Shown here: positions 128 to 43,685 of the stretch, piece by piece
Layout: each line of letters begins with the position of its first letter
Position numbering within the stretch: position 1 is the first letter of the stretch
Source of the DNA: a virus
Reading direction: 5' to 3' (one strand)
Length of the DNA stretch: 43,685 bases
Virus record (IMG/VR): IMGVR_UViG_3300020202_000117
Coordinates: 1-43,685 of that record
The notes under the pieces: generated by a model
What the model was told of the DNA's origin: nothing
The model's database searches: none
What the model saw: only the letters and a program-made list of their open reading frames with translations
Translations under genes and position numbers: made by a program

Positions 128-966
128 TCTGTCCGGACGATGTAATCCTGCCAAACCCGACCGTCAGTATGTCTTGGAAGCTCCAACCCTGAAATACCAC
201 CTAATTCAGTGGTGTATTTTTCCGCTATCTGCTTTCGCCTCTCTAGTGTTTCGCCTAATTTCCTAAACTTGATATTCAAATAAGCGGCCTGTAAATTATC
301 TAATCTTGAATTAACACCCCAATCCCGAGCATCAGTCTTGAAGTGGTTGCGGGCATCTTTGACGTAGTTGTACATTTTCTCATCATTGGTAACGAGCGCT
401 CCAGCATCCCCATAAGCGCCTAAGATTTTGGCTGGGTAAAAGGAGAAACAGCCAGCTATTCCAAATGAACCGGCTTTCTTGCTGTTATGGACTGCGCCTA
501 GTGCTTGAGCCGCATCCTCGATTACATGCCAACCGTACTTCTCGGCAATTTTTAAAATGTGGTCAAAGTGGGTATCAAACGCACCTTCGATATGAACCGG
601 GATAATCGCCTTAATGTTCCGGATTTCGTCTATCGGCAAGGCTCCGTCTAAATCATAAAAGATAGGTTCTGCCCCGACTTGCTTGATTACCTGAACTGAA
701 GCGACAAAAGTCCGGGAGGGAACCAAGACAAAATCCCCTGGTCCAATCCCTAGTCCCCGAAGGGCTAGATAAAGGGCATCAGTACAGGAGTTAAGCCCGA
801 TTGCGTATTTAGTCCCGCAAAAATCCGCTAGATGTTTTTCAAACTTTTCTGTATCTTCCCGCAAGATAAGGTCGCCATTAGTAAGCACCCTGTCGGTTGC
901 CCCTAAGACTTCCTTCCTTATTTGTGAATAGCCCAGCCCTGGGTTAAAGAACCTAATTGATGACAT
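1..966 (-). CDS. DegT/DnrJ/EryC1 aminotransferase, N-terminal 322 codons (continues at 43558)
   Basis: PLP-dependent aminotransferase of the DegT/DnrJ/EryC1 family, which moves an amino group from glutamate to a keto group on a nucleotide-linked sugar. The frame starts at the ATG at 966 (MSSIRFFNPG), runs open to base 1, and resumes at 43558 to stop at 43487, giving 345 aa, normal for the family. Visible motifs are IEDAAQALGA, then FYPAKILGAYGDAGA with the PLP-binding Lys near residue 178, and VNSRLDNLQAAYL near residue 230. The start overlaps the end of the SDR gene by 14 nt, and the stop overlaps the oxidoreductase start by 11 nt, so it sits mid-operon. WbpE-like (3-amino) and PglE/PseC-like (4-amino) roles are both possible; the sequence alone does not decide. 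Confidence 0.93.
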   Translation of the reverse strand, partial: MSSIRFFNPGLGYSQIRKEVLGATDRVLTNGDLILREDTEKFEKHLADFCGTKYAIGLNSCTDALYLALRGLGIGPGDFVLVPSRTFVASVQVIKQVGAEPIFYDLDGALPIDEIRNIKAIIPVHIEGAFDTHFDHILKIAEKYGWHVIEDAAQALGAVHNSKKAGSFGIAGCFSFYPAKILGAYGDAGALVTNDEKMYNYVKDARNHFKTDARDWGVNSRLDNLQAAYLNIKFRKLGETLERRKQIAEKYTTELGGISGLELPRHTDGRVWQDYIVRTEKRDMLYDYLKEVGVETMKNNYPFPVPKLPMAQKYEDETLRLP

Positions 967-1786
967 AAAATTTTCCTTGTTTAATTGCTATTTTTTCTTC
1001 ATCTAAAGTCATAAGCTTCTCATCCAAAGTCTCCCCCGGACGGGTGCCGATGATTTTAATTGGATAGTCTTCCCCATAAATCTCATTTTTCAAATCAATA
1101 ATCCTTTTTGGCTTGCCCATATCTAAAATCCACAACTGGCCGTTATTGCCCAATTCTCCAGCTTCAAGCACAAGCTCACACGCCTCTGGAATAGACATCA
1201 TATAGCGGGTCATTTCCGGGTCAGTAATGGTCAAAGGTTCGCCGGCCTCATACTGGCGCTTCCAAATCTGAAGGACACTTCCCCGGGAATGAGCGACATT
1301 GCCAAACCTGACAGCCACAAACCTGTTGCCACGGTTTCGGACAATGCTTTCGGCCGCAAGTTTGGTGATGCCCATAATACACTTGGCATTTACTACCTTG
1401 TCGGTTGAGACAAAGATAAATTTTTCCAGACATTCCCATCTCTGGGCTTCCCTGATTAAGTTAAGAGTGCCGTTAATGTTGGTTGCCACTGCTTCTTCCG
1501 GGTACTCTTCACAAGGTGTGACGTGCTTTAGAGCGGCGGCGTGGATGACTATCTCCGGCTTAAAATCCGAGAAGACATCAAATAAAGTATCCTGATTCCT
1601 GATGTCCCCATTACGGGAGGCAACCCACAAGCCTTTTTCCCGAAGCTCTGTCCGGAGGTCGAAAGCCCGGGTCTCATCTATATCGAGAATAAAGATAAAG
1701 TTTTTCTGGGCGGCCAGTTGCCTTACAAGTTCGCTTCCCACACTTCCTGCCCCGCCAGTAACTAATACACGTTTGTTTGTAATCAT
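953..1786 (-). CDS. CapD/FlaA1-type SDR, probable UDP-GlcNAc dehydratase or epimerase
   Basis: Short-chain dehydrogenase of the polysaccharide biosynthesis CapD family, 277 aa. The Rossmann motif TGGAGSVG is at residues 10-17. The catalytic region STDKVVNAKCIMGITK has Met-x3-Lys in place of the usual Tyr-x3-Lys, a hallmark of the FlaA1/WbpM/PglF dehydratases. GTRPGETLDEKL near the C terminus matches the family GxRPGEKLxE element. It is soluble and shorter than FlaA1 (about 330 aa), with no membrane segment like that of WbpM. The likely reaction is 4,6-dehydration (with or without C5 inversion) of UDP-GlcNAc to a 4-keto-6-deoxy sugar, which the DegT enzyme encoded next could aminate. Its ATG overlaps the transketolase stop (TAATG). 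The family is clear; the exact product is inferred. Confidence 0.9.
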   Translation of the reverse strand: MITNKRVLVTGGAGSVGSELVRQLAAQKNFIFILDIDETRAFDLRTELREKGLWVASRNGDIRNQDTLFDVFSDFKPEIVIHAAALKHVTPCEEYPEEAVATNINGTLNLIREAQRWECLEKFIFVSTDKVVNAKCIMGITKLAAESIVRNRGNRFVAVRFGNVAHSRGSVLQIWKRQYEAGEPLTITDPEMTRYMMSIPEACELVLEAGELGNNGQLWILDMGKPKRIIDLKNEIYGEDYPIKIIGTRPGETLDEKLMTLDEEKIAIKQGKFYVIN

Positions 1787-2277
1787 TAGAGTCTGATGTA
1801 ATTAGGGTTTTTAGAATGGTATGAATATAAAACCGCTTCTTTGACTTCCTCTAAACTCTTGGGGTTGTGCCACATCAGGCCGATATTGTCGCAAAAATCA
1901 AAGTCTTCCTTTTCATGCAGGAGATTGTGAGAAAACCCAAGAAACTTGTAAGAAGAACTACCCTTTACCCCTAAAAGGGTTACCGGGGCGTTATGGCAAA
2001 CAAGCGCATTCCTGACCATCTCCCCTGGCCGAAAGAGCGAGAAGTTAATCATGGTGTAGTAAAAAACCTTGAATCCAGAGAGGGCGAGAGTGGCAGCGAT
2101 AATCATCGCACTTTGTTCAGTGACCCCAAGGTTTAGGACTTTAAACTTATTCTTTGGGTCGTCTAAATACATGAAGCCAACATCAGGGATAATGACCACG
2201 ATATTCGGGTCGTTTAATTCGTTGAGCGTATTGATAAACTGCCTTCGGTTATCTAAGTTCTTTACAAGCTTGCCCAT
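1786..2277 (-). CDS. Minimal transketolase pyrimidine-binding (Pyr) subunit
   Basis: Second half of a split transketolase, 163 aa. It has only the TPP Pyr domain: the catalytic glutamate motif LGVTEQS is near residue 52, followed by GFKVFYYTMINF and a terminal NPNYIRL that matches the end of the Pyr domain. Split C-terminal subunits are usually about 300 aa and carry a Transketolase_C domain, which is absent here. The frame looks intact, since the stop overlaps the next ATG as TAATG. It overlaps the N-terminal subunit gene by 29 nt, so the two are probably translated together and form a heterodimer or heterotetramer. In sugar loci such pairs transfer a two-carbon ketol unit; the substrate here is unknown. 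Confidence 0.9.
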   Translation of the reverse strand: MGKLVKNLDNRRQFINTLNELNDPNIVVIIPDVGFMYLDDPKNKFKVLNLGVTEQSAMIIAATLALSGFKVFYYTMINFSLFRPGEMVRNALVCHNAPVTLLGVKGSSSYKFLGFSHNLLHEKEDFDFCDNIGLMWHNPKSLEEVKEAVLYSYHSKNPNYIRL

Positions 2278-3022
2278 ATTCTTTTTCGTCTAATTGTTTA
2301 TAGTGGTACAAATTATTGTCCTCAAAAATTGAAACGCCTTTACCTTTGGTAGTCTTGGCGATAATTACCTTCGGTTGCTCCACGCCTTCGCAGTAATCAA
2401 GGGCTGTTTCGATTTGTTTAAAGTCATGCCCGTCCACGTCTATCACATCAAAGTTAAAAGCATCCCATTTAGAACCCAGGCAATCCATATCCAAAACCGT
2501 CTCAGTCTTACCCATGGCCTGATGGCCGTTTCTGTCGACAATTACCACCAAGTTATCTAAACCATGATGACTAGCTAAAGCGGCTGCTTCCCAAGTCGTA
2601 CCGATGGCTTGTTCCCCGTCTGACATCAGGACATAAACTGTTCCCTTTTCGCCCCGAAGCTTCTTTCCAAGAGCGTAACCGACTCCGGCTGGTAGGCCAT
2701 AGCCCATGCTCCCGCCGGCAAATTCACAGCCCCAATATCCAAGGGGTTCAACTAGACCGATATATTTAGACTTGCCGTCACAGTAAGTTTCGATTGCTTC
2801 TTTTGGCATTAATCCGTGCTTAACTCCCAGTGCATAGATGGTCGCCGCCACCCAACCTTTTGAAACCACCAGCTTATCTTTTTTAAAATCAGCCTTGTCG
2901 TAAAGGACAGTCAGCAAATCTACGCAGGAAAAATTAGACCCGATGTGCGAAGTCTGGGCTTTGAAAAGCATCTCTAAGACTGTCTTTCTAATTTGTTTTG
3001 CTGTTTTCTCGTAGTTTTTCAT
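2249..3022 (-). CDS. Transketolase N-terminal (TPP PP-domain) subunit
   Basis: First half of a split transketolase, 257 aa, matching the TPP-binding PP domain. The motif MSDGEQAIGTTWEAA followed by IVDRNGHQ reproduces the GDG-x(about 26)-N element that binds magnesium and the diphosphate. HIGSNFSCVDLLTVLY near residues 26-41 matches the conserved N-terminal sugar-phosphate region (family form HxGSxLSxxD), and GGSMGYGLPAGVGYALG is also typical. It starts at ATG 3022, overlapping the nuclease stop as ATGA, and is followed by the Pyr subunit. Phages sometimes carry transaldolase for carbon metabolism, but this pair sits among sugar-nucleotide genes, which points to glycan synthesis rather than the pentose phosphate pathway. 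Confidence 0.92.
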   Translation of the reverse strand: MKNYEKTAKQIRKTVLEMLFKAQTSHIGSNFSCVDLLTVLYDKADFKKDKLVVSKGWVAATIYALGVKHGLMPKEAIETYCDGKSKYIGLVEPLGYWGCEFAGGSMGYGLPAGVGYALGKKLRGEKGTVYVLMSDGEQAIGTTWEAAALASHHGLDNLVVIVDRNGHQAMGKTETVLDMDCLGSKWDAFNFDVIDVDGHDFKQIETALDYCEGVEQPKVIIAKTTKGKGVSIFEDNNLYHYKQLDEKEYGQACKELR

Positions 3023-4418: not shown

Positions 4419-4494
4419 CCTCCTTATCCTATGTGTGTATATCCTGTGGATAACTCCCAATTTAACTACTCTTTTATCCCTCATATGGGAGTTA
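4419..4494 (-). promoter_or_regulatory. Candidate RNA switch with alternative pairing over a ribosome site
   Basis: On the minus strand a 9-bp stem TAACTCCCA (4494-4486) / TGGGAGTTA (4459-4451) is interleaved with GGATAA (4479-4474) / TTATCC (4453-4448), an H-type pseudoknot sharing three bases. The same TTATCC is also complementary to GGATAA at 4429-4424, which abuts and overlaps the AAGGAGG ribosome site of the 42-aa gene. The two pairings exclude each other, so the element could open or close translation. This is by-eye pairing only. Confidence 0.45.
4445..4453 (-). promoter_or_regulatory. DnaA box, perfect consensus
   Basis: TGTGGATAA on the plus strand is TTATCCACA on the minus strand, the strong DnaA-binding consensus. 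A second perfect copy lies at 6986-6994. Two copies 2.5 kb apart do not define an origin, and this one also takes part in the RNA pairing described at 4419-4494. Confidence 0.5.
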
Positions 4495-4598
4495 AAAAAG
4501 TTCTTAATTAATCAATAAATTGGGCAAAATTTTGGTAAACAGTCAGGTTAGCCTGCCTAGAGCCTGAATTTTTGTCTGGTTCCAAAATCGCCAAGTTT

Positions 4599-4671
4599 CT
4601 TTAATGAACAAGTGAGGTCTCCCGTTGCCGAGTAGTCAGGCAGAGCGGGAAATGTCGTCTGTTCACTAAAG
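4599..4671 (-). ncRNA. Nested stem structure B (candidate structured RNA)
   Basis: The outer 12-bp stem joins 4599-4610 (CTTTAATGAACA) and 4660-4671 (TGTTCACTAAAG). Its single imperfect position is a G-U pair only when read as minus-strand RNA and an A-C mismatch on the plus strand. Inside are TCCCG (4620-4624) / CGGGA (4646-4650) and TGCC (4626-4629) / GGCA (4639-4642). It lies between the 109-aa gene and the 42-aa gene. The upstream promoter is not convincing. Confidence 0.6.
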
Positions 4672-4742
4672 GGGTCAGTCCAAGTTTTTTAGGAGATGCA
4701 CTGATAGCTCCTATTTATTGAATTGTCGTAAATGCTGAAATA

Positions 4743-5072
4743 CTAGTAGGTCAAATCTGCGGTCTGCCAATACCGGCGGGGAAGAAAAATTTGGGCTTTG
4801 TGGTCTTCCTCTTTTTTAAAGTGATAATATTGGCCGTTTTTATCTATCTGTTCGGCAGTGGTGATGTAAATGCGGTTGTCCTCGGTATCGTGGACGTGGA
4901 TGGTGTAGTTATTGGGAAGTAAGACATCTCGAAAATACCGGCCGTCTATTCCCCAAGCGTCCAATTTCCGGAAAAGGTGAAAACTCTTTTTTACTTTCTT
5001 TTTAAATGTGTTTCCGACAAGTTCCCCGATAACTCTTTCATTAGGGGTGTTTTCGTTTATTTTGATAAGCAT
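4743..5072 (-). CDS. Hypothetical protein, 109 aa
   Basis: Unrecognised. It starts MLIKINENTPNERVIGEL and is basic in the middle (FKKKVKKSFHLFRK), with alternating hydrophobic residues after that (YTIHVHDTEDNRIYITTAEQ). This suggests a small beta-rich protein. It has no signal peptide, membrane segment or cysteine motif. It is flanked on both sides by structured non-coding stretches rather than coupled to other genes, and lies in the early-type small-gene region near the ssDNA-binding-like protein. Confidence 0.7.
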   Translation of the reverse strand: MLIKINENTPNERVIGELVGNTFKKKVKKSFHLFRKLDAWGIDGRYFRDVLLPNNYTIHVHDTEDNRIYITTAEQIDKNGQYYHFKKEEDHKAQIFLPRRYWQTADLTY

Positions 5073-5102
5073 TTAGGCGAAAAGATTATTTTGCTCTAAA
5101 GA

Positions 5103-5162
5103 TTGGTCCGGTTTTGCTGATAAGGGATTGCCTAAAAACCTTATAGCTACCTATCGGACCAA
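5103..5162 (-). ncRNA. Nested stem structure C (candidate structured RNA)
   Basis: TTGGTCCG (5103-5110) pairs perfectly with CGGACCAA (5155-5162), and inside it ATAAGG (5120-5125) pairs with CCTTAT (5139-5144). It sits about 30 nt upstream of the 109-aa gene. It may be part of that gene's leader or, with structure D, part of one longer RNA. Confidence 0.55.
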
Positions 5163-5186
5163 ACCTTAAAACAAAATTTTTATTAC

Positions 5187-5224
5187 CCCCGATTAAGAGC
5201 TAAGGAAGTCCTCTCAATCAGGGG
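5187..5224 (-). ncRNA. Stem-loop D
   Basis: CCCCGATTAAGAG (5187-5199) pairs with CTCTCAATCAGGGG (5211-5224), about 12 bp with one bulge. The internal mismatch becomes G-U on the minus strand and stays A-C on the plus strand, favouring a minus-strand RNA. It lies 24 nt from structure C in the 252-nt gap between the 86-aa and 109-aa genes. Confidence 0.55.
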
Positions 5225-5246
5225 AATAAACAATGGGTAATTTACG

Positions 5247-5272
5247 AAAAAACCCAGACCATTTAACTGGTC
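5247..5272 (-). terminator. Possible intrinsic terminator after the 86-aa gene
   Basis: On the minus strand GACCA (5272-5268) pairs with TGGTC (5261-5257), and TGGG then TTTTTT follow. The stem is only 5 bp and the T-run starts four bases after it, so termination is likely partial. A perfect anti-16S sequence GGAGGTGA lies just upstream (5281-5274). Confidence 0.4.
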
Positions 5273-5324
5273 GTCACCTCCTCCCATATGCCAGTGGCTA
5301 TGAGAGAAGGAAACACTAGCTAAA

Positions 5325-6241: not shown

Positions 6242-6387
6242 GCTTTTACCTTCCGGTTAATTTCGACTTTGAAATCCCTTATCTCTATTTGGGCGCAGAT
6301 ACAGAACGGGTAATCTGAATCCTCACATTCCTGATAATGTTCCGACTCCAATTTGTCGTACCAAACCTCCGGGTCAAACTCTGGCAT
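6238..6387 (-). CDS. 49-aa acidic protein with a CxC pair
   Basis: Small frame starting MPEFDPEVWYDKLESEHYQE and containing CEDSDYPFCIC. The acidic first half and three cysteines suggest a possible metal site, but no family is recognised. The ATG overlaps the stop of the 69-aa gene (TAATG), and the stop overlaps the next ATG (ATGA). It belongs to a four-gene coupled string that ends in the ssDNA-binding-like protein. Confidence 0.65.
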   Translation of the reverse strand: MPEFDPEVWYDKLESEHYQECEDSDYPFCICAQIEIRDFKVEINRKVKA

Positions 6388-6596
6388 TAGAATGGCATCT
6401 CCTCGTAGAGCTTAATCATTTCATCGGCCTTTTCTAATTGCTTTTGTAGCTCTTGAATCTTGATTGGGTTCAGGTGTCCCACTTTGGTCTGCTCAAGGAT
6501 TCGGGTCTTTTCCCGTTTCCATTCGGCTATCTTGGAAAGAAGATAGTCGCTTTTGATGGCAGTCTCTTGCGGACTGCGTTGTATAAATAGACTCAT
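6387..6596 (-). CDS. 69-aa coiled-coil protein
   Basis: Starts MSLFIQRSPQETAIKSDYLL and is followed by about 50 residues rich in Lys, Glu and Leu with heptad spacing (IQELQKQLEKADEMIKLYEE). It is probably a short coiled coil with no recognised function. It is the first gene after the terminator at 6611-6639, so it needs its own promoter or read-through. The region immediately upstream (TTTTCTTAATTAA side) is AT-rich, with no clear consensus promoter. Confidence 0.65.
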   Translation of the reverse strand: MSLFIQRSPQETAIKSDYLLSKIAEWKREKTRILEQTKVGHLNPIKIQELQKQLEKADEMIKLYEEMPF

Positions 6597-6607: not shown

Positions 6608-6931
6608 ATTAAAAAACCCCGCTTTTTATAGCGAGGTTTCGTATCAGTGGTTTTAATAGCCCAGGTGCCTCTTCTTAAGGATAACACCCAGACTAATAGG
6701 ACCACTGATTTCGTAAGGTCTTTGTTTGAAGAACTACTCTAGTTGAGATTGTTCAAAAACAATGACAGACTTATTTCTCGCTTTAAATCGCAATAAGTTT
6801 TTAAAGAGGAGCTATCCAAAGGTCGTAAACCTTCACTACTCTCGGAATGTGCCATGCGTGATATTCACGGTTAGGCTAATCTAGAATCTTCCGACTAAGC
6901 CTTTGACGTAATCTCTGGCGACAGCTCCTAT
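6608..6931 (-). ncRNA. Candidate structured non-coding RNA E, about 320 nt, with promoter and terminator
   Basis: The RNA should start near 6931, seven bases after a consensus -10, and end at the terminator at 6611-6639. Reading 5' to 3' the stems are as follows. A 10-bp closing stem 6929-6920 / 6816-6807 encloses three hairpins (6902-6898/6877-6873, 6869-6865/6861-6857, 6833-6829/6823-6819). A 7+7-bp H-type pseudoknot follows (6806-6800/6787-6781 interleaved with 6798-6792/6775-6769). Next are hairpins 6763-6758/6753-6748 and 6744-6740/6736-6732, then a 9-bp stem 6709-6701/6651-6643 with an inner GGTG/CACC. No credible gene lies inside. The closing stem and terminator contain G-U pairs only on the minus strand. 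No known RNA family was recognised. Confidence 0.75.
6611..6639 (-). terminator. Intrinsic terminator of RNA E
   Basis: On the minus strand AAACCTCGCT (6639-6630) pairs with AGCGGGGTTT (6623-6614), 10 bp with one U-G pair, and continues into TTTTTT. A short loop separates the arms. It separates the RNA E unit from the 69-aa gene. Confidence 0.8.
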
Positions 6932-6937
6932 ATTTAT

Positions 6938-6966
6938 ATCTTACACCTACTAGCCTACACTGTCAA
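6938..6966 (-). promoter_or_regulatory. Sigma70-type promoter of RNA E
   Basis: TTGACA (6966-6961), a 17-base spacer and TAAGAT (6943-6938). The -35 is perfect and the -10 matches five of six bases. It overlaps the last codons of the HTH gene (GAC AGT GTA GGC TAG). The predicted start lies just before the 10-bp closing stem of the RNA. Confidence 0.75.
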
Positions 6967-7183
6967 GAGCCTGTTTTGATTTTCTTGTGGATAACTTGCC
7001 GACACGAACCAGATTCATTTCTTTAGCATATTTCCAGTAACGAGTCATGGTTTTTAAGTCTACTAGCTTGCCGGATGCGGTTTTCTTCATTCTACTCTGA
7101 GCTTGCCTATATGACAAACCCTGATGGTGGATAAGTTCCACCACCTCTAAAATTCGTTCTATATCTCTAGTCGGTTTTGGCAT
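6950..7183 (-). CDS. Small HTH protein, probable regulator
   Basis: 77 aa from the ATG at 7183 (MPKPTRDIERILEVVELIHH). GLSYRQAQSRMKK looks like the turn and recognition helix of a helix-turn-helix, and DLKTMTRYWKYAKEM may extend it; the C terminus is basic. An upstream GTG at 7201 is in frame, but the promoter at 7190-7217 would start transcription at the ATG itself, so I prefer 7183. It sits directly after the integrase, as small repressors or excisionases often do. It lacks the length of a CI-type repressor with a dimer domain, so an excisionase or a Cro-like role is also possible. Confidence 0.65.
   Translation of the reverse strand: MPKPTRDIERILEVVELIHHQGLSYRQAQSRMKKTASGKLVDLKTMTRYWKYAKEMNLVRVGKLSTRKSKQALDSVG
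6986..6994 (-). promoter_or_regulatory. DnaA box, perfect consensus (inside the HTH gene)
   Basis: TGTGGATAA on the plus strand is TTATCCACA on the minus strand. It abuts the left copy of the 12-base repeat ACTTGCCGACAC. Because it is also coding, it could be chance. Confidence 0.35.
6994..7005. repeat. 12-base repeat ACTTGCCGACAC, copy 1
   Basis: Identical to 7200-7211. This copy lies inside the HTH gene next to a DnaA box. The pair could be operator half-sites for a regulator that loops DNA, though a chance repeat cannot be excluded. Confidence 0.4.
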
Positions 7184-7189
7184 ATCATT

Positions 7190-7217
7190 ATTGTACACCA
7201 CTTGCCGACACAGTCAA
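7190..7217 (-). promoter_or_regulatory. Promoter of the HTH gene, giving a leaderless message
   Basis: TTGACT (7217-7212), 16-base spacer, TACAAT (7195-7190). Seven bases separate the -10 from the A of the ATG at 7183, so the transcript should begin at or next to the start codon with no ribosome site, as in the lambda cI message from PRM. The spacer contains the second copy of ACTTGCCGACAC. Confidence 0.7.
7200..7211. repeat. 12-base repeat ACTTGCCGACAC, copy 2 (in promoter spacer)
   Basis: Occupies 12 of the 16 spacer bases of the HTH promoter. A protein bound here would block RNA polymerase, so it is a candidate operator for autoregulation. Confidence 0.45.
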
Positions 7218-7223
7218 TAGAGT

Positions 7224-8111
7224 TTATCCCCTAACCTTCGCCCATTCTTTCTTTAAATCAGTCCCTTCTAATGTGGTGTAAATCCTTGAGCTATTGATAT
7301 TAGAATGCCCCATTAAATCACTTATAACGCCATTGTTTACCCCTTTGCGAGCCAAAGCCCTGCCATAGGCATGGCGGTACATGTGACAGTGAATAAAAGG
7401 AAAGATACCTGCTTTTTTGGAATAAGCCCGTAGAGAGTGAGCCATGCCGGTTGGCGTGAATCTCCGTCCACAGAAACCCCCGGATGCGCCAATAAATAAA
7501 GCTTTCTCATCTTGCCCGTACTTTAATTTCTTTCTTCTTTGTAGCCACCTGTCTATTTCCCTTTGGGTATCCTTTGTCCAAAATATCTGTCTGATTGGTT
7601 TGAATCCCCTGCTCTTTTTAGTCTTGATAATGGCCTGCCTGTTTTTTAAGTCGTCTATATCCAAATCTAATATCTCGCCTATGCGACATCCCGTGTCCCA
7701 TAAAAGCATCAGGATGGCCCTATTTTTAAGGTGCCTTGGGTCTTGGTTTTGAGGGATAACTGAGAGGATTTTGCAGTGTTCCTCTAGGGTAATTGTCCGG
7801 GGCATGACAAATACCTTGCGGGGTACTGGGATTAAATCCTCATGGAAGACTTTGTAATTTTGTAGTCTTAGGAATCTAAAGAACTTCCTAAAGCCATTAA
7901 CCTTAGTGACAAACGCCCGCCTATCCCAGCCTAATTTCTCAAGGGTCTCGAAGTAATCTGAAACGTCAGATGGCCTCACTTCTTCCACATCGCAGTTTTC
8001 CATATACATAGCAAAATACCGCAGGGTTGTGTCATGTCCCTTGTTGGTATAGGTGGTTATCTCATACCGGCGAAGCTTTGAAAACTCGTCAATGGCTTCT
8101 TTGAGGCGCAT
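7224..8111 (-). CDS. int: Tyrosine recombinase (phage integrase)
   Basis: 295 aa, with a SAM-like N-terminal core-binding domain (residues 1-95) and a complete catalytic domain. The active-site residues are visible: Arg143 in TGCRIGEI, Lys165/166 in KTKKSRGF, His243 and Arg246 in HCHMYRHAYG, His269 in LMGHSNI, and Tyr278 in SRIYTT. It lacks the AP2-type arm-binding N terminus seen in lambda integrase, so it resembles XerC/D-like phage enzymes. It probably integrates the phage into a host site or resolves multimers; no attachment site is evident. Upstream are a perfect promoter (8222-8249) and a terminator-like hairpin that ends just before the ATG, suggesting attenuation of integrase expression. 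Confidence 0.93.
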   Translation of the reverse strand: MRLKEAIDEFSKLRRYEITTYTNKGHDTTLRYFAMYMENCDVEEVRPSDVSDYFETLEKLGWDRRAFVTKVNGFRKFFRFLRLQNYKVFHEDLIPVPRKVFVMPRTITLEEHCKILSVIPQNQDPRHLKNRAILMLLWDTGCRIGEILDLDIDDLKNRQAIIKTKKSRGFKPIRQIFWTKDTQREIDRWLQRRKKLKYGQDEKALFIGASGGFCGRRFTPTGMAHSLRAYSKKAGIFPFIHCHMYRHAYGRALARKGVNNGVISDLMGHSNINSSRIYTTLEGTDLKKEWAKVRG

Positions 8112-8112
8112 A

Positions 8113-8150
8113 TTAAAAGGCCCGCCTCCAGTTACTACACTGAAGACGGG
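8113..8150 (-). terminator. Terminator-like hairpin directly before the integrase gene
   Basis: On the minus strand CCCG.CTTCAGT (8150-8139) pairs with ACTGGAG.CGGG (8132-8121), followed by CCTTTTAATATG. The T-run is short, so it may be an attenuator. The GGAGG inside the 3' arm is the only ribosome-site-like sequence for the integrase, 13 bases before its ATG, so the hairpin could also block translation. Confidence 0.5.
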
Positions 8151-8164
8151 TTACATAAATTATA

Positions 8165-8202
8165 AACCATCGGTAGTAAACCCCCTTTATAGGGCGATGG
8201 TT
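8165..8202 (-). promoter_or_regulatory. Leader hairpin downstream of the 8222-8249 promoter
   Basis: AACCATCG (8165-8172) pairs perfectly with CGATGGTT (8195-8202), with an inner CCC/GGG (8183-8185/8192-8194). The inner sequence CCCTTTATAGGG resembles the palindrome in the promoter spacer. Together with the hairpin at 8113-8150, the region would make a two-hairpin RNA of about 100 nt. Confidence 0.6.
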
Positions 8203-8221
8203 AATGATTAAATTGTACTGA

Positions 8222-8249
8222 ATTATACCCTATAAATAGGGATTGTCAA
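8222..8249 (-). promoter_or_regulatory. Perfect sigma70 promoter with palindrome in the spacer
   Basis: TTGACA (8249-8244), 16-base spacer, TATAAT (8227-8222): both hexamers match the consensus exactly. The spacer holds the inverted repeat CCCTAT-TT-ATAGGG (8241-8228), a likely repressor site. The promoter begins directly after the stop codon of the M23 gene and drives the integrase leader. Confidence 0.85.
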
Positions 8250-12786: not shown

Positions 12787-13392
12787 TCAGTACCAGTTGT
12801 GTGAATAATGAAAGTTCAAGGCGTTGCAGGGGTTCCCATATCGGTAGTAGATGTAATCAAACATCCAAGCAAACTGCGTAGCGGGGTTGGTCATGTAATC
12901 TGCCCCATGGGTTGCCATCTTAGTTGCTGGAAGCGCTTGAGGGATGCCATAAGCACCGCTTCCTGCCCTGTTCCAGATAAGATGGTTATACCCGCTTTCT
13001 TTCATCACTAATTTGTCAAAGCAAGACCAGTATTCTCCCCAGCCGTAAGCATGGAGGAGCATGTAGCCTAGTTTTCTATTTTCGTCTGGCGTGTTTCGGC
13101 TTGTATCTTCTGCCAGATTCGGTTCTTGATTTCCCTCAGTTCTTCCTGGGTCTGGTGTTTGAGGAGTTTCCGGTCGTACATCCACATCAGCGCGTCCGTC
13201 CAGAATTGGAGTTGGTCGAATTTCTTTCTCATAAGTAGAGTTGGCTGTCCGGGCAAACAATAAGCTTAGCGTTACAACAATAAGTACCAGCCATAATTTT
13301 TTCTTAATAAAGCACCTTAATCTCGCTACCCGCCTCCTGTGCCTCCCGAGTTTTGAGCTTAATAAAAAAGAGCAGACTGCCCCGAAGGACAT
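12787..13392 (-). CDS. Membrane-anchored lytic transglycosylase; start codon unclear
   Basis: The C-terminal 85 residues match secreted lytic transglycosylases of actinobacterial type: WSCFDKLVMKESGYNHLIWN with a catalytic-type Glu, then GSGAYGIPQALPATKMA and NPATQFAWMFDYIYYRYG. The N terminus has a basic patch and one hydrophobic span (FIKKKLWLVLIVVTLSLLFA), then a Pro- and Asp-rich linker. The only in-frame ATG is at 13392, which lies inside the terminator hairpin of RNA F and has no ribosome site. The segment nearer the signal anchor has AAGGTG followed by an in-frame ATT near 13308, so initiation at a rare codon is possible. The domain call is firm; the start is not. Confidence 0.75.
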   Translation of the reverse strand: MSFGAVCSFLLSSKLGRHRRRVARLRCFIKKKLWLVLIVVTLSLLFARTANSTYEKEIRPTPILDGRADVDVRPETPQTPDPGRTEGNQEPNLAEDTSRNTPDENRKLGYMLLHAYGWGEYWSCFDKLVMKESGYNHLIWNRAGSGAYGIPQALPATKMATHGADYMTNPATQFAWMFDYIYYRYGNPCNALNFHYSHNWY

Positions 13393-28822: not shown

Positions 28823-29167
28823 CTATTTGGTTAATTGTATTAATTGTCTTTCTAATATTTCCTTCTGAGTCTTTGGCGCATCCAAAGCCTGCAGGAGGAT
28901 TTTATAAACGGTGTGGTAAGGGATTAGTTCTGCCTTTTTACTCTGCTCAATGTTCAAGTCTGACCACTTACCCTCGATTACTGAGACCTGACCCTGCATA
29001 AACTGCCTAAAATCATCAATCGTCAGTTCTTCTTTGCTCAATATCTCCCTGTAATTCTCAAAAATCTGGAATTCGTTGGGCGAGCCGTCAGGCATCGGCG
29101 TTTTGTCCAGTTCTTCCGGTCCTTTAAAGCCTTTTTGGTTGAGCCACTTGTAGAGTAATTTGTGCAT
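28823..29167 (-). CDS. Hypothetical helical protein, 114 aa
   Basis: Starts MHKLLYKWLNQKGFKGPEEL and is mostly amphipathic helix. Contains QIFENYREILSKEELTIDDF. The family is not recognised; the position upstream of the scaffold gene suggests a head-assembly or regulatory role. The ATG follows directly after a terminator-like hairpin and its TTTTTT run (29171-29204), with no ribosome site visible, the same layout as at the portal gene. Confidence 0.6.
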   Translation of the reverse strand: MHKLLYKWLNQKGFKGPEELDKTPMPDGSPNEFQIFENYREILSKEELTIDDFRQFMQGQVSVIEGKWSDLNIEQSKKAELIPYHTVYKILLQALDAPKTQKEILERQLIQLTK

Positions 29168-29170
29168 AAA

Positions 29171-29204
29171 AAATAGCGAGCCAAGACGTAGTGTCTTGCT
29201 CGCT
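29171..29204 (-). terminator. Hairpin with T-run before the 114-aa gene
   Basis: On the minus strand AGCGAG (29204-29199) and CAAGAC (29198-29193) pair with GTCTTG (29187-29182) and CTCGCT (29180-29175), with one bulged base and loop ACTAC, followed by ATTTTTTATG. This looks like an intrinsic terminator, but the promoter at 29238 and the ATG at 29167 flank it, so it may act as an attenuator. Confidence 0.6.
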
Positions 29205-43497: not shown

Positions 43498-43685
43498 AAA
43501 AATTCCTAACCATCTTAATGACATAATCTACTTCTTCATCCGTAAGTAACTCATTGCAAGGCAGTCTCAATGTCTCGTCTTCGTATTTCTGAGCCATGGG
43601 AAGTTTAGGTACGGGGAACGGATAATTGTTCTTCATAGTCTCCACCCCGACTTCTTTTAAGTAGTCGTAGAGCATGTCCCTTTTC
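43487..43685 (-). CDS. DegT/DnrJ/EryC1 aminotransferase, C-terminal end
   Basis: The C-terminal part of the aminotransferase that begins at 966. The end of the window repeats the first 127 bases; the unique codons are 43487-43558 (23 residues plus stop), reading NELLTDEEVDYVIKMVRNFY before a stop at 43487-43489. The stop overlaps the oxidoreductase start by 11 nt. See the entry at 1-966 for motifs. Confidence 0.92.
   Translation of the reverse strand, partial: KRDMLYDYLKEVGVETMKNNYPFPVPKLPMAQKYEDETLRLPCNELLTDEEVDYVIKMVRNFYEV
43559..43685. repeat. Terminal direct repeat, copy 2
   Basis: Identical to bases 1-127. Position 43559 corresponds to base 1 on the closed circle. Confidence 0.95.

Follow-up and report, generated by a model that had tools for sequence, protein, structure and literature searches.

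An orphan candidate structured RNA element downstream of the integrase gene in an uncultured phage

INTRODUCTION

ROOL and GOLLD are elaborate non-coding RNAs of unknown function that are borne by phages and prophages, and ROOL contains pseudoknots (PMC12286853). STAXI, a candidate RNA motif built of pseudoknots, has been placed near DNA-manipulating genes, including those of integrases, and Lacto-int has been listed as a candidate structured RNA of Lactobacillales and phages (PMC2864571). The putRNA of HK022 is a phage RNA element located 3' of a phage promoter and ahead of terminators (PMC9378689).

Here we analyze IMGVR_UViG_3300020202_000117, a 43,685-base virus record from an uncultured phage, referred to below in its full length as the window. 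On its minus strand, at 6608..6931, lies a candidate structured RNA with a predicted transcript of about 320 nt. Our leading, if tentative, reading is that the region encodes a terminated, structured non-coding RNA of the phage, made from its own promoter where a temperate phage controls its integration. Nearly as likely is that the region forms a long structured 5' leader of the genes downstream, and the evidence bearing on these two and on other readings is set out below.

RESULTS

The first and last 127 bases of the record are identical (direct terminal repeat, 1-127 and 43559-43685), so it is probably a complete, circularly assembled phage genome. All genes recognized in it are on the minus strand, including those of the portal (weakly matching that of SU10), major head protein, terminase, tyrosine integrase, and M23 peptidase. 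Along that strand, the tyrosine integrase gene (PF00589; 7224..8111, ATG at 8111) and an ORF of 83 aa with no assigned function (6950..7201) precede the candidate RNA, which starts about 260-290 bp past the end of the integrase gene and is itself followed by a cluster of small ORFs from 6596 to 5613. The first ORF of this cluster (69 aa, 6387..6596, minus strand) gave no Pfam, PHROGs, or PADLOC family above the cut-offs. The single-sequence model of the 83-aa product was of low confidence (pLDDT 57), and AlphaFold single-sequence models of two neighbor proteins (pLDDT 55-57) were too poor for use. ARAGORN found no tRNA or tmRNA gene in the 43,685-base window. In the genome collection, the terminases nearest to that of the phage came from MAGs with very mixed labels and point to no single host. 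Elsewhere in the genome, the stretch 953-3022 (minus strand) holds a polysaccharide-biosynthesis gene of the epimerase type and an ORF of 257 aa that, judged from its sequence, may be a partial transketolase.

The preliminary description of this locus had proposed a sigma-70-type promoter, TTGACA-17-TAAGAT, and it is indeed present at 6966-6938 on the minus strand, matching the consensus at 10/12 positions and lying partly within the 3' end of the 83-aa ORF. The transcription start predicted from it, at about 6931, lies 2 nt ahead of the first stem, P1. Promoter-like sites were not commoner in the candidate region than in its shuffles (9 versus 12.0). Genome-wide, only six minus-strand sites scored 10/12 or better; four of these are located in 8249-6938, a clustering that is the pattern expected for a control region.

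The predicted structure, all of it on the minus strand, opens with P1, whose 5' strand AGGAGCUGUC (6920..6929) and 3' strand GAUAGCUCCU (6807..6816) form 10 bp including one G-U pair (6922-6814), with ensemble pair probabilities of 0.81-1.00, in agreement with the stem as first described. The junction of three hairpins that had been placed inside P1 held up in part: it is one of several near-isoenergetic interiors and is not uniquely determined. Pair probabilities were 0.84-0.90 for hairpin P3 (6873..6902; AGGC...GCCU, enclosing additional pairs), 0.53-0.59 for P2, 0.49-0.72 for P5 (GAAGGU/ACCUUU, 6818..6834), and 0.34-0.45 for P4 (CGUGAAUAUCACG, 6857..6869), with which other folds compete. 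An extra loop pairing of UCGGAA (6894-6889, on the loop side of P3) with UUCCGA (6847-6842) is possible from the complementarity of the two segments and would compete with P3 pairs.

Directly abutting P1 is an H-type pseudoknot (6769..6806) with two stems of 7 bp (S1, 6806-6800/6787-6781; S2, 6798-6792/6775-6769) and loops of 1, 4, and 5 nt, as had been claimed. It turned out to be the only perfect 7+7 H-type pseudoknot on either strand of the genome, with 0.13 expected per shuffled strand, and such a pseudoknot arose in 16 of 20,000 local shuffles. Both stems are rich in A/U, and S1 faces competition from nested alternatives. The 3' part was also found as it had been drawn: two more hairpin domains come next, and then a 9-bp stem and an intrinsic terminator. 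The 9-bp stem, AUCAGUGGU/ACCACUGAU (6643..6709; 6709-6701/6651-6643), encloses an inner hairpin and has pair probabilities of 0.88-1.00. The terminator, AAACCUCGCU-AUAAAA-AGCGGGGUUU plus a U run (6611..6639), has arms at 6639-6630/6623-6614, with one G-U pair (6634-6619), a run of six T, and pair probabilities mostly above 0.9.

For the whole unit the folding energy was -105.5 kcal/mol (z -5.67), and none of 100 shuffles folded as well. The z-score was -4.75 without the terminator and -3.33 for the 125-nt core alone; some coding windows of the phage genome reach about -5.6, as estimated from 20 shuffles only. Folding of the minus-strand sequence, the check suggested at the outset, thus showed structure beyond chance, with the reverse strand at z -3.97. 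Since the minus strand folds better and both P1 and the terminator hold G-U pairs, an RNA is favored over a DNA structure.

As the preliminary description had maintained, no convincing coding frame is present in the unit; the largest frames touching it are an ATG ORF of 38 aa and a GTG ORF of 70 aa that runs through the terminator. Nor was any known family recognized: Rfam 15 gave no match in the whole window at gathering cut-offs, and a relaxed scan returned only unrelated models far under theirs, the best being a microRNA model that scored 24.9 bits (cut-off, 94).

We then looked for relatives of the RNA. In INPHARED, blastn with the candidate RNA returned matches of 30-35 bp only, and in PLSDB the match was limited to the terminator. 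Four patterns of 15-18 bases, chosen along the length of the RNA, each had 0-18 hits in IMG/VR, all of them chance-like; the first pattern's hits were examined with blastn and nhmmer, and the hits of the last two patterns were read in context. The terminase as a query recovered 80 relatives in IMG/VR, with identities of up to 77%, while the integrase, the DNA-transfer protein, and the 1860-aa protein returned no IMG/VR relatives. In 48 longer terminase-related records the RNA was absent by DNA search and by a single-sequence covariance model, and the three best-looking DNA hits proved to be chance on reading. The same model, which was also run on the window, found no homologue in 97 loci.

Bacterial genomes were sampled as well. 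No homologue was detected among 380 genomes of the phylum to which a Woesebacteria MAG belongs (by DNA and model) or among 374 of its class (by DNA), nor in 199 genomes from the phylum of a MAG labeled Elusimicrobia. Two matches in the former phylum covered the terminator only, and one exact 23-nt match in the latter, inside a long bacterial coding frame, was judged to be chance. The sampling amounted to about 900 genomes. Because a covariance model built on one sequence has little power, absence is not proved by these negatives.

Other parts of the window are also structured on the minus strand. Upstream of the integrase (8112-8249), a perfect sigma-70 promoter, TTGACA-16-TATAAT (12/12, at 8249), is followed by about 100 nt of structured leader (z -4.34) and by a terminator (8150-8121) with GGAGG in its 3' arm; the arrangement resembles that of an integrase leader subject to attenuation or occlusion. 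With z -8.1, the gene-free interval 5050-5322 has the strongest fold observed in the window; it contains several long hairpins, a terminator-like site at 5272-5257, and no Rfam match. A further gene-free interval, 4484-4742 (z -4.1), holds TAAATAGGAGCTATC, a sequence similar, perhaps by chance, to that with which the candidate RNA begins (TATAGGAGCTGTC). On the same strand, a strong terminator at 13369 is located just inside the ORF 12787-13392, the true start of which may be downstream.

Structured gaps were also seen in the terminase relatives. In one of these (G015; L103, 7307-7667 and 8625-9025) no gene lies in either integrase flank, and both flanks show structure on the coding strand, with z-scores of -5.05 and -3.81, respectively. 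In the window and 11 terminase relatives, 11 of the 24 gene-free gaps of at least 200 nt had a z of -4 or lower on one strand, versus 37 of 197 in control loci (Fisher p = 0.0065; p = 0.0003 after removal of the window's own gaps and addition of four from close terminase loci). The comparison is a rough, post hoc one that covers only 12 records, most of them in overlapping pieces, with 20-25 shuffles per gap; host DNA and other taxa are among the controls, and terminators contribute to some of the gaps. The structured gaps of the relatives have no detectable sequence in common with each other or with the candidate RNA. We regard it as rather unlikely that they and the candidate RNA reflect a trait of the lineage, by which each genome would carry several large, fast-diverging structured RNAs, some of them flanking the integrase, that keep their architecture or position while their sequence turns over; were it so, homology searches would miss such a class of RNA for that very reason.

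DISCUSSION

The unit is framed by consensus sites for a promoter (6966-6938) and a terminator (6639-6611), the layout of a putative stand-alone RNA gene. On this reading, transcription would begin at the unit's own promoter, with the RNA start adjoining P1; the domain closed by P1 and the pseudoknot stacked on it would form a stable, compact 5' domain, and the 3' hairpins with the terminator would define where the RNA stops. Termination near 6611 would yield most of the transcripts, which would act in trans as RNA, probably via a protein or another RNA partner, and occasional read-through could supply the downstream small genes. Pairing of the exposed loops with phage gene starts reached -9.5 kcal/mol at best, weaker than the median best for shuffled sites (-10.9 kcal/mol), so no significant pairing was found.

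The folding excess of the minus strand, the genome-unique pseudoknot abutting P1, the predicted start immediately before P1, the strength of the terminator, and the clustering of promoters in 8249-6938 speak for a stand-alone RNA, as do the structured gene-free intervals on both integrase flanks of the terminase relative G015. Against it stand the lack of a detected homologue, a promoter score that is ordinary when compared with shuffles, the coding windows with nearly as great a folding excess, the lack of significant pairing between its loops and phage gene starts, and a terminator located just 5' of a gene start, as elsewhere in this genome, which suits a leader.

The preliminary description had called the unit a complete RNA gene by its layout; a promoter and a terminator do frame the structure, but the same layout fits an attenuated 5' leader equally well. 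According to this alternative, which is a serious possibility, the unit would be a long structured attenuator or antitermination element of the cluster 6596 to 5613, and its fold, or whatever binds it, would determine if polymerase reads through the terminator (6639-6611). The U run ends at 6611, and the first ATG of the cluster (6596) is only about 15 nt further. There is no other promoter of at least 9/12 on the minus strand between 6938 and that ATG, and the integrase has an equal order of promoter, leader, terminator, and ATG (8249, 8150-8121, 8111). Another strong minus-strand terminator, at 29173, is found 6 bases before the ATG at 29167; terminators beside ATGs may, however, merely reflect compact packing. 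The terminator of the candidate forms with a probability of about 0.97 in the ensemble, and the sole antiterminator-like complement seen is a 6-nt segment (AGCGAG, at about 6782-6777, versus CUCGCU), roughly what is expected by chance, both of which count against this reading. The leader and the stand-alone RNA are thus nearly balanced, and both can be true together if termination is incomplete.

It is unlikely that the unit is an incidental intergenic stretch, that is, untranslated sequence with a terminator and chance hairpins but no function as RNA. Such a view would agree with the lack of conservation in any of the searches and with the roughly 19% of gene-free gaps of at least 200 nt in control prophage loci that reach a z of -4 or lower on one strand, but the folding excess survives removal of the terminator, the 7+7 pseudoknot is rare among local shuffles, and phages rarely keep 350 bp unused. 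A DNA-level element, namely an attachment site or a recognition region for a recombinase or replication in which the inverted repeats are protein-binding sites, is improbable, since, although inverted repeats are present and attP is often near tyrosine integrase genes such as the one ending 260-290 bp away, the G-U pairs, the one-strand bias of the fold, its framing by promoter and terminator, and an interlocked pseudoknot with no obvious role in DNA point to RNA.

Taken together, the locus is best described as an orphan candidate phage RNA element, for which the term undescribed structured RNA element is fair, with its structure and function unproven. If it is transcribed, its size of about 320 nt is tractable for structure work. 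The hint of unrelated yet equally structured intervals in the relatives would raise a testable question, namely whether large RNAs of phages evolve too fast for covariation methods.

Among the known systems, type III toxin-antitoxin loci of the ToxI type have the order promoter, pseudoknot RNA, terminator, and gene, and so, by its predicted layout, does the candidate locus. ToxI, however, is a tandem repeat of short pseudoknots followed by a ToxN-type endoribonuclease, and no such enzyme is found here: the ORFs beside the candidate gave no PADLOC match and no Pfam match above the cut-off. HK022 put RNA is about 70 nt long, consists of two stem-loops, and acts on downstream terminators, whereas the candidate, with 320 nt, a pseudoknot, and a terminator of its own, has neither the size nor the fold of a put-type antitermination RNA. 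STAXI consists of two or three copies of a pseudoknot, and the candidate has a single one of the H type; no Rfam family, including STAXI and similar motifs as far as they are modeled, matched it. ROOL and GOLLD differ from the candidate in being much larger (many GOLLD RNAs exceed 800 nt), often near tRNA islands, and supported by covariation, so that the candidate, at its size, with no tRNA gene in the window and no Rfam match, is not of their type. Like them, it is phage-borne and appears to be structured and non-coding, and it shares with ROOL the presence of a (here predicted) pseudoknot; if it is transcribed, this compact pseudoknotted RNA would join the short list of structured phage RNAs.
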